Assembly (NCBI RefSeq): GCF_000312505.2
Contig: NZ_HG326225.1
Span: forward strand, 76,249 to 140,248
DNA: 64,000 nucleotides
Origin: Fenollaria massiliensis
GTDB lineage: Bacteria > Bacillota > Clostridia > Tissierellales > Peptoniphilaceae
Direction of reading: 5' to 3'
Below the pieces are notes generated by a model. The model searched no databases. It was given only the letters and a program-made list of their open reading frames with translations, and had not been told where the DNA came from. This document shows, piece by piece, positions 15,373 through 46,547 of the stretch (position 1 is the stretch's first letter; each line of letters starts with the position of its first letter). Both the position numbers and the translations under genes were made by a program.

Positions 15373-15388
15373 TTAAGTTTTGATCAAC

Positions 15389-15414
15389 AAAAAAAGAAGC
15401 CTTTTAGCTTCTTT
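15389..15414 (-). terminator. Intrinsic terminator after the TnpV-like gene
   Basis: Minus strand AAAGAAGC-TAAAAG-GCTTCTTT followed by T's: an 8-bp perfect stem and six-base loop, starting nine bases after the stop codon of the 15423-15836 gene. Confidence 0.85.
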
Positions 15415-15422
15415 CTCCAAAT

Positions 15423-15836
15423 CTATTCTTCTATTATTTCCTTTATTAGCATCTCTCTCAGTGCTGACATCATCACTGGATATTGAGGACTGTCCTCGCT
15501 CTCTATCTTCCACGCTTTCATCATTCTCGGCTTTTCCGTCTTGATGAAGTTCTCTGCTCTCACTTGCGTCTCTTTCAAGTGGTCTATCAAGGTCTTGTCC
15601 CAATATAGTTCTTGAAGTTTCATCCAGTTCTCGTCCGTTTGTTCCAGTGACAGATAATCCAGCCTCATTATCGCCCAATTCACTCCATGATTTTTTTGGA
15701 ATTCCTCGTCCGCTAGTAGCTCGTCCTCCACTATCTCGTTCATCTTGTACGCTATCTCCTCCGTGTCCTCGCATTGATCGAACGGACTCTCTATCCCAAT
15801 CTCCTCGTATTCTTTCAGACTCTCCTCGAAGCTCAT
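15423..15836 (-). CDS. TnpV-like small transposon protein
   Basis: 137 aa, preceded by AGGAGGT seven bases from the ATG and followed by a clean terminator, so expressed in its own right. Middle part has AIMRLDYLSLEQ, then KLQELYWDKTLIDHLKETQ and a helical end, which resembles the YGxMRxxYL...L..HL pattern of the TnpV proteins carried by Clostridiales mobile elements. Its function is unknown. It is more G+C-rich than its surroundings. An overlapping Arg/Glu-rich frame (15373-15774) runs into the terminator and is considered a shadow. Confidence 0.55.
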   Translation of the reverse strand: MSFEESLKEYEEIGIESPFDQCEDTEEIAYKMNEIVEDELLADEEFQKNHGVNWAIMRLDYLSLEQTDENWMKLQELYWDKTLIDHLKETQVRAENFIKTEKPRMMKAWKIESEDSPQYPVMMSALREMLIKEIIEE

Positions 15837-15934: not shown

Positions 15935-16127
15935 AATAAAAAAGGAACTATAAATAATTATAGCTCCTCTATATGATTTTTAACATGTTTCCGAAGATAC
16001 CTCCATCTCCCACGCTAGGGTCTACAGATAAATCTAAACTGTAATGTTTTTCGCTATCTCGGGTATTTCCGACGCTCCCGGTTAAGCTAAAGGATAAAAC
16101 ATTAACCCCCAATTCTCTTTTAATTGT
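15935..16127 (-). ncRNA. Structured RNA gene, copy 1 of a tandem pair
   Basis: About 193-nt transcript predicted from a strong promoter (16134-16162) and an intrinsic terminator (AGGAGCTATAA/TTATAGTTCCT plus T run). Stems visible: GGTTAA/TTAACC; TCGG-aaatac-CCGA; and TACAG/CTGTA around a 10-11-base loop. AATGTTTT in the first loop can pair with AAAACATT further on, which would make a pseudoknot. Copy 2 shares the core. No ORF or Shine-Dalgarno. The family is not recognised with certainty; AbiF-type RNA is a guess. Confidence 0.75.
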
Positions 16128-16133
16128 AAGTAT

Positions 16134-16162
16134 ATTATAGCACATCTAAGATAGTCTTTCAA
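16134..16162 (-). promoter_or_regulatory. Promoter of RNA copy 1
   Basis: Minus strand TTGAAA (-35, 16157-16162) and TATAAT (-10, 16134-16139) with a 17-base spacer and a TGTGC extended -10. Near consensus. The same boxes and spacing recur for copy 2. Confidence 0.85.
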
Positions 16163-16214
16163 CTACAAACAAACAAATAAAATTGTGTTTCACATAAACT
16201 AAACACTTCTAATG

Positions 16215-16407
16215 CAAAAATCAAAAAGGAGTAATGCTGATTCATCACTCCTTAGTCAATTTTATTGGCTTTTTAGCAATACAACCTCACTAGCCCTTGA
16301 GTCCACCGATAAATTGTAACGGTGATGTTTTTAGCTATCTCGGGTATTTCCGACGCTCCTGGTTAAGCTAAAGGATAAACATTAACCCCCAATCCTCTGT
16401 TAATTGT
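16215..16407 (-). ncRNA. Structured RNA gene, copy 2 of a tandem pair
   Basis: Same predicted length (about 193 nt) and core as copy 1, with terminator AAGGAGTGATG/CATTACTCCTT plus T's at 16215-16253. The third stem is CACCG/CGGTG where copy 1 has TACAG/CTGTA: both sides of two base pairs have changed together, which is direct evidence that the stem is selected. The 3' third differs from copy 1. No coding potential seen. Confidence 0.75.
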
Positions 16408-16413
16408 GAATAT

Positions 16414-16442
16414 ATTATAGCACATTTAGCTTAATCTTTCAA
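16414..16442 (-). promoter_or_regulatory. Promoter of RNA copy 2, inside the end of the upstream gene
   Basis: TTGAAA (16437-16442), 17-base spacer, TATAAT (16414-16419). The -35 box encodes part of FERLS at the end of the 43-aa gene, and the stop codon lies in the spacer. Confidence 0.85.
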
Positions 16443-16557
16443 ATTCTTTTTCAAGTTCTTTAGCTTGTAACTTAAGCTCTTTAATTTTTTCAGCCGAATC
16501 CTCTTTTTTCTTATTTTCTTTCTCAATTTTGTCAAGAATTCTCTCTAATTTATTCAT
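16426..16557 (-). CDS. 43-aa coiled-coil protein (DUF4315-like)
   Basis: Reads MNKLERILDKIEKENKKK then a Glu/Lys-rich helix ending FERLS. AAGGAGG lies seven bases upstream. Short, all-helical, highly charged proteins of this look (DUF4315) occur beside helicase and TnpV-like genes in Clostridiales conjugative elements. It is shorter than usual. Too small for the ORF list but well supported by its start site. Confidence 0.6.
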   Translation of the reverse strand: MNKLERILDKIEKENKKKEDSAEKIKELKLQAKELEKEFERLS

Positions 16558-16619
16558 AACATACCTCCTTTTTACTCATTTTAATTTTAAGCTATCTAAA
16601 ACGCTCATATCTCGATTTT

Positions 16620-16718: not shown

Positions 16719-16945
16719 TTAAAACCAAGCTTTTCTTTTCCCATTCTTAAATATTTTCTTCTTAATCCCAAGCAGTTTCGATGGATATTTTTCTATCACT
16801 TCTGCAAAATTTATTGAACCGTAAATTTCTCCATAATTCATTGCTTCTAATATATCATCTTTATTTTCTTTAACTTTAAAAAATCATAGGCTGATACTTT
16901 TAATTGCATAGGTAAAGTTTTTATTTCTATATTTAAACTTACCAC
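16719..16945 (-). pseudogene. Frameshifted small element gene, unknown family
   Basis: First part reads LNIEIKTLPMQLKVSAYDFLKLK. The frame then changes in an A-rich run near 16883 and continues as ENKDDILEAMNYGEIYGS, INFAEVIEKYPSKLLGI to a stop. The two parts join smoothly if one base is restored, so a one-base indel broke the gene. GTG at 16943-16945 may be the start. Family not recognised; position after mobC suggests a transfer accessory gene where the relaxase is normally found. Confidence 0.5.
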
Positions 16946-16969
16946 CTCTTTTTATATTACATTATAAAT

Positions 16970-22657: not shown

Positions 22658-22825
22658 GTTTATATACACAAACTAATTCAAAGTCTCAATTTTTTGTCCA
22701 AATGTAAACCACTTGGAACTATTATTCAATTTATTCTTTTTTACTTCCAGTACCATTTGAGTACCAGTAGCCATTTTTCATTCTCTATATAGCTTGTAAT
22801 CAAGCCATTTTAGAAAATTTTGCGA

Positions 22826-46353: not shown

Positions 46354-46419
46354 TATTTCACCTCCGCTGGAAAAATAGGAACTTTAGCTTTTTTGCTAAT
46401 CCCGTTTAATATATATCAA

Positions 46420-46520
46420 TAAAAAACCCTCTTATAGACATAAGGGGGTTGATACTGGCTATCTATCCTCGGTAGGAAATTAAGCTTAACGCACCTACTG
46501 TCTACGGTTTATATATTCCT
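46420..46520 (-). promoter_or_regulatory. L10 leader (autoregulatory r-protein mRNA leader)
   Basis: Minus strand carries the conserved ACCGTAGACAGTAGGTGC and CCTACCGAGG blocks of Firmicute L10 leaders, then an attenuator-like terminator (AACCCCCTTAT/ATAAGAGGGTT plus T6, 46421-46450). L10-(L12)4 binding is known to repress rplJL. Confidence 0.92.
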
Positions 46521-46547
46521 ATTAAATTAAATTCTGTTAACTAGTTT

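Follow-up and report, generated by a model that had tools for sequence, protein, structure and literature searches.

Two homologous RNA genes lie side by side on the minus strand (15935-16442) of a stretch of 64,000 nucleotides (nt) from Fenollaria massiliensis (NZ_HG326225.1), hereafter the window, and are probably solitary antitoxin RNAs of a type III-like toxin-antitoxin system. They belong to an RNA family which is unlisted in Rfam. Since members of this family are found elsewhere directly before the gene of a predicted RNA-cutting toxin, a protein of the PBECR4 family (PF18813), the pair in the window looks like antidotes that have outlived the poison. All coordinates are those of the whole window, whose genome (G000, an assembly of 1.71 Mb in 7 contigs) is one of three considered in the genus.

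The organization of the two genes was examined first. Each has its own promoter, an exact match to TTGAAA-17-TATAAT, and its own strong terminator, a hairpin followed by a T run. For copy 2 the promoter is at 16414-16442, the RNA at 16223-16407 (putative start set by the -10 box) and the terminator at 16223-16253; for copy 1 the corresponding positions are 16134-16162, 15935-16127 (putative start) and 15935-15970. In each RNA a common core of 104-105 nt (16294-16397 in copy 2, 16013-16117 in copy 1) precedes a diverged 3' part and then the terminator. The copies are 83% (95 nt, ungapped) to 89% (105 nt) identical, and diverge 3' of that. The initial annotation had described these two units, with their promoters, core and terminators, as it had the absence of an evident protein product: the only open reading frame (ORF) of at least 50 amino acids (aa) on the RNA strand within either RNA is one of 58 aa, in copy 1. 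Its suggestion of an RNA antitoxin is probably right in kind, and the mobile-element setting is confirmed, mobile-element remnants adjoining the copies. The folding energy of both RNAs is unremarkable (z = -1.58 for copy 2 and -1.59 for copy 1), so that the case for them rests on homologues and covariation.

Homologues were searched with three models: R1, based on sequence only; R2, a structured model trained on five sequences (two from the window, two from G002, another genome of the genus, and one from G049); and R3, a later model of 18 sequences. All three recognize the cores, and R2 scores copy 2 at 129.1 bits and copy 1 at 122.2 bits. Rfam gave no match at gathering score over the RNA genes, and at E up to 10 only weak ones, far under gathering. 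At E up to 1, R1 matched 136 of 249 genomes, and follow-up was confined to the best matches outside the genus: that in G049 (E 1.2e-7), a full-length homologue, is real, and those in G183, G029, G155 and G190 were dropped on inspection by eye. R2 reached G100 (Parvimonas, E 1.6e-7). In both G049 and G100 the next gene after the RNA encodes a PBECR4 protein (41.7 and 66 bits, cut-off 27), the two proteins being 37% identical; the search was therefore reversed, with the protein first. The Parvimonas protein led by tblastn to two Fusobacterium plasmids, where R2 found the RNA before each of the three PBECR4 genes examined, two of them in tandem in F. hwasookii. The record of the latter has a third place matching both RNA and protein, outside the three genes examined. 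A scan of genome contigs for PBECR4 gave 11 loci. They are distributed as follows: nine have an R2 RNA at E up to 0.001, the tenth (Tissierellia) an RNA visible by eye and by R3 at E 0.046, and the eleventh (Enterococcus pallens) a different RNA-like stretch. In all, R2 finds 18 RNAs, the five of the training set and 13 new ones in loci unseen by the model. Twelve of the latter immediately precede intact PBECR4 genes; the thirteenth, in Streptobacillus, stands before an 18-codon frame which may be a truncated PBECR4 start. Together with G049 this makes 13 RNA-PBECR4 pairs, with 77-117 nt from core end to start codon; two of them (G049 and G100:C12) were found starting from the RNA, the others in loci fetched by the protein. 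Hosts include Parvimonas, Fusobacterium, Streptobacillus, Catonella, Streptococcus suis and Erysipelotrichaceae, and in Bacillota and Fusobacteria the relatives are carried by plasmids and integrative elements.

Over 249 genomes of the order R3 found nine copies in 5 genomes, six of the copies belonging to the window's genus and three lying next to PBECR4, and no RNA outside lineages already known. R2 matched 6 of 391 genomes of the class, three of these being dropped as chance; its matches in G598, G570, G409, G012, G111 and G101 were set aside as falling in coding, repeat or badly aligned DNA. By blastn, the G049 RNA gave mostly matches to its terminator part in 130 genomes of the family, and window DNA gave only weak matches in plasmids and phages (9 and 26 records, E 0.01 or worse), one of which (F. 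hwasookii, E 0.1) turned out later to mark a genuine family member. Viral contigs yielded no member under any of three search patterns: 111 of 111 loci read by eye for the first; at least 120 loci for the second, of which R1 was run on 92 and the low-GC loci among 120 were read; 28 of 28 loci scanned with R3 for the third.

The additional copies, sought as a test of the structure, brought more covariation, in three helices (P1, P2 and P4) and two pseudoknots (PK1 and PK2). Pairing in P1, P2 and P4 is kept in 93.1% of 246 cells against 72.3% in shuffles, slid versions are all far lower, and 12 of the 14 pairs have changes on both sides; this alignment was fitted to R2 and leans toward these helices. 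P4 is TACAG/CTGTA in copy 1 (16023-16043) and CACCG/CGGTG in copy 2 (16304-16324), the two compensated pairs which had drawn attention to these RNAs. PK1 joins the P1 loop to the strand before P4, and PK2 the P2 loop to the strand after GAAAUA. Complementarity was tested by permutation on 14 lineages, with borders set by eye (w1, G002a, G002b and Fh2 were dropped as close relatives and Ery2 was not entered). The own complementarity of PK1 was 183 against at most 164 in 100,000 permutations, that of PK2 175 against at most 170, and the own PK1 partner was best or tied in 13 of 14 rows. When the two best helices between 52 nt before and 32 nt after the anchor were taken by a fixed rule, the observed total of 414 was reached by 6 of 100,000 permutations (highest 422). 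Examples of PK1 are AUGUUU/AAACAU, AUGCUU/AAGCAU, AUAUAC/GUAUAU, GUGAG/CUCAC and AUGGG/CCCAU. Judged from these comparisons, the RNA has two predicted loop-to-downstream pseudoknots whose letters vary while pairing is kept, PK2 being the weaker. The pseudoknot claimed earlier for both copies is real, while its pairing AATGTTTT/AAAACATT is complete in copy 1 only, where AAUGUUUU (16096-16103) faces AAAACAUU (16043-16050, the final base doubling as the first base of P4); copy 2 has six pairs, AUGUUU (16377-16382) with AAACAU (16325-16330). Likewise GGTTAA/TTAACC is present in both window copies and absent from the G049 homologue, so that it lies outside the family fold.

To characterize the partner we examined the PBECR4 proteins. 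PF18813 was found in 4 of 130 genomes of the family (3 above cut-off) and in 5 of 104 of the class, and a profile of the present PBECR4 branch matched 3 of 391 class genomes; a Lactococcus control genome also carries a PBECR4 gene. In the accessible part of PMC5512222, PBECR domains are predicted to be metal-independent endoribonucleases (endoRNases) with a His and a Thr/Ser, and are proposed to hit CRISPR RNAs (crRNAs) or mRNAs. Residues H39 and T146 are invariant in 9 of 9 proteins, which fits that active site, and together with scores above the curated cut-off identifies the partners as PBECR4 by sequence criteria. No sequence match to solved structures was obtained. The weak tail of a fold search contains two contact-dependent inhibition (CDI) toxins, and no ToxN-like entry is among the matches listed.

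Results concerning the window's genus indicate that the RNAs are kept there on their own. Two copies are present in 3 of 3 genomes (G000-G002), in none of which PF18813/PBECR4 was found; the branch-specific profile was negative in G000 and G002 as well. The best candidate for a PBECR4 remnant, just behind G002 RNA-a (tblastn E 0.14, two stops), was treated as chance. Over the 16 kb compared, G001 and the window share 99% identity; G002 is diverged, its RNAs lying 1.8 kb apart. From their 3' parts, copy 2 is the orthologue of G002 RNA-a and copy 1 that of RNA-b. Identity between window and G002 is 95.4% and 97.2% for the two RNAs (98.1% and 96.2% for their cores), compared to 93.0% for the promoter of copy 2, 77.2% for the small ORF ahead of it, 88.5% for the stretch behind copy 1 and 91.3% for the next ORF. 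The RNAs are better conserved than the measured flanks, which suggests selection on them. It is accordingly unlikely that the window copies are decaying, functionless remnants, as the absence of the nuclease and the adjoining mobile-element remnants might suggest: promoter, core fold and terminator are intact in both, and the flanks outside the promoter reach only 77-91%.

In homologous loci the order is promoter, RNA, terminator and nuclease, which is the layout of type III toxin-antitoxin loci. The accessible part of PMC5086642 describes the latter as an endoRNase and a pseudoknotted RNA antitoxin under one promoter, with an intervening Rho-independent terminator, and gives tandem repeats as a criterion. 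The present loci resemble ToxIN, CptIN, TenpIN and AbiQ in promoter, RNA, intrinsic terminator, (predicted) endoRNase gene and pseudoknotted RNA. They differ in that the partner is, by Pfam, PBECR4, where the known toxins are of the ToxN family; in that this branch has a single-unit RNA (170-200 nt, two pseudoknots) where the known ones are short tandem repeats; and in that the toxin is absent from the window, so that a terminator and upstream RNA before a nuclease are seen only in homologous loci. Neutralization of PBECR4 by the RNA is the simplest reading. We infer transcription, binding, inhibition of PBECR4 and protection along the following lines. In a complete system a strong promoter would give an RNA of 170-200 nt folding into P1, P2, P4 and two pseudoknots; the majority of transcripts would end at the terminator, and a minority would continue into the gene of PBECR4, the predicted metal-independent endoRNase. 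Once folded, the RNA would bind and block this nuclease as ToxI does ToxN, and upon loss of the element the RNA would decay and the cell be poisoned. In the window's genus the nuclease gene would have been lost or never present, and two RNA copies, now diverged, would each be retained with a promoter of its own; these orphans may still protect against PBECR4 nucleases of incoming elements, as immunity leftovers or anti-addiction RNAs.

The layout extends in part to PBECR4 genes which lack this RNA. Upstream DNA was read by eye for 18 such matches (9, L341, L374 and 7 more): in 16 the start codon is closely preceded by a hairpin, and this in turn by an RNA-like stretch, in most cases with a -10-like box further upstream, the T run of L378 being poor and the promoter of one G121 gene lying outside the DNA viewed. 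Two G121 genes follow tandem repeats, of 65 nt (100% matches) and 81 nt (80%); such repeats, found in type III loci and lacking in the present RNA family, are seen here in another branch. Tandem Repeats Finder gave no matching array at the Erysipelothrix phage locus, nor at L375-L377, where two diverged units are visible by eye only. At L341 (Enterococcus pallens) and in the viral L328 and L329, another common RNA-like stretch with a GAGTGCA/TGCACTC closing stem precedes the PBECR4 genes, and L372, L373, L378 and L381 (other Clostridia) have a third type, GTCAGGYAG..CTCCTGAATAGG. R3 gave no match at G575 and G592, and its one match in L378 (E 0.08) is not at the position before the PBECR4 gene. 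By a strict terminator rule, 14 of 21 PBECR4 genes follow a terminator against 18 of 128 control ORFs (p 1.3e-6); a later sample chosen by PF18813 alone gave 3 of 7, and the pooled 17 of 28 has p 1.0e-6.

Such a layout would in large part also be produced by a cis-acting leader, an attenuator or riboswitch-like element that only sets PBECR4 expression at the terminator, and the terminator-like hairpin indeed ends 15-35 nt before the start codon at 13 of 21 PBECR4 genes. A role as leader only is nevertheless rather improbable: it does not account for two better-conserved orphan copies in each of three genomes without PBECR4, and the ORF behind copy 1 has by eye a promoter-like TTGACA/TACAAT site of its own. 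Even less probable is a guide, scaffold or positive cofactor of PBECR4, in an RNA-containing effector against competing elements or host RNA. The variable, self-complementary loops and the targets proposed for PBECR domains in the part of PMC5512222 cited above would suit it, but the variable stretches pair within the RNA and leave no evident free guide, and orphan RNAs without nuclease make little sense as guides.

Several other observations weigh against the antitoxin reading. In this branch the RNA consists of one long unit, tandem repeats being the mark of known type III antitoxins, and most loci were fetched via the protein, so that they show what precedes this PBECR4 branch and not what follows the RNA. 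For PK2 the own partner ranks best or tied in just 7 of 14 rows, and the near loss of PK2 in copy 2 of the window, with only two pairs left, speaks against a strict requirement. In other PBECR4 branches this RNA is absent before the gene: it was found in 0 of 7 in the later PF18813 sample, R2 matched 0 of 3 viral PBECR4 contigs, and R3 had no match at G121, G055 or the viral contigs. The strict terminator rule fails in 7 of 21 genes and in 4 of 7 of the later sample, and no RNA layout is visible at L330 or at G055, the latter match being below cut-off and inside a long ORF. The fold search with the PBECR4 model (pLDDT 82.5) gave no convincing match (best Foldseek E 0.3, best Z 4.3). Finally, solitary RNAs were found in one genus only, plus the one beside a truncated frame.

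Relations to other RNAs were also considered. The initial annotation had proposed an AbiF-type RNA; AbiF gave no Rfam match at E up to 10 and the partner elsewhere is PBECR4, not Abi_2, and RAGATH-16 (RF03047), with a short common motif GCGUCG..CGAGAUAG.GAAAA, matched the window RNA weakly, at 19.6 bits (E 0.57) against a gathering score of 65.6. The CGAGAUAG part of this motif is confined to the window's genus and the homologues tested gave no RAGATH-16 match, so that either identity is highly improbable. A scan of 89 genomes for RF03047 in context matched none, and no control matched either. In the accessible part of PMC12373285, RCd22 of Clostridioides difficile neutralizes the toxic protein AbiF-Cd in trans by binding. 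The likeness is an RNA with terminator ahead of a toxic protein gene (a presumed property for PBECR4); that system has an Abi_2/AbiD/F protein and an abiF motif, and the Rfam test, which is the extent of the comparison, revealed no relation to the window RNAs.

Among the neighbouring genes submitted to Pfam, PBECR4, HipA_C, NikA/MobC, VapE-like and TnpV-like were found, and no Abi_2. In G002, a 70-aa ORF and a HipA_C kinase gene (L133 6036-7225) come after RNA-a and lie between both RNAs, and RNA-b is followed by a TnpV-like ORF (weak Pfam match). DNA like the 70-aa ORF is kept in the window (16733-16967, minus strand) and the kinase is not; relatives of the kinase on Campylobacter and Megamonas plasmids likewise follow a smaller ORF. 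The TnpV-like ORF (137 aa, weak Pfam match) lies at 15373-15836 on the minus strand of the window and at L133 7710-8396. Another open frame on the same strand, resembling a linker or remnant of a giant SNF2/methylase-type element protein, covers most of its DNA, and L314 (8252-16324) has a 254-aa ORF in another frame of the giant gene; the two frames are possibly two genes in one stretch. Ahead of copy 2 a small ORF, coiled-coil-like by eye, covers 16425-16560 (minus strand). It is the one which is 77.2% identical to the ORF before G002 RNA-a, and similar ORFs stand before both RNAs in G002, i.e. duplicated along with the RNA unit. In G049 two repeat units 61 nt apart (L165 3799-3893) are found just upstream of the RNA, in a conjugative element; we take them to resemble type I-E CRISPR repeats, presumably a possible mini-array. 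Other Rfam matches in the window, all on the minus strand, are Enterococcus sRNA_0030 (49-214), the small RNA SpR18 (22668-22800) and an L10 leader (46411-46525).

The partner proteins belong to the predicted RNase clade of Iyer et al. 2017 (PMC5512222), which, in its accessible part, treats PBECR domains as effectors of phages and conjugative elements and mentions no RNA partner. Neither there nor in PMC9403866, as far as these sources are accessible, did we find a link of a PBECR domain to an RNA antitoxin, and the name PBECR4 was not found in the literature searched, with preprints and most subscription papers outside the search. Within that literature PBECR4 is a putative toxin family nowhere found reported with an RNA partner. 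The points of difference from known type III systems are the toxin family, as assigned by Pfam, and, in this branch, the single-unit RNA; the layout and the pseudoknots are type III-like. A wider proposal, which we hold only tentatively and at somewhat less than even chances, is that PBECR4 nucleases are the toxins of a large unrecognized RNA-antitoxin class with several unrelated RNA folds, which range from tandem-repeat RNAs to a compact double pseudoknot whose loops vary, and that the window's genus carries a toxin-free, two-RNA immunity set acting as anti-addiction against invading elements. If the antitoxin reading is true, a nuclease family would be added to the type III toxin-antitoxin class, and a Pfam family so far only predicted in function would gain one. 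With loops that vary and pairing that is maintained, the RNA would also allow toxin-antitoxin specificity to be probed by loop swaps. Solitary RNA antitoxins kept without their toxin would be a clear test case for RNA-based anti-addiction.
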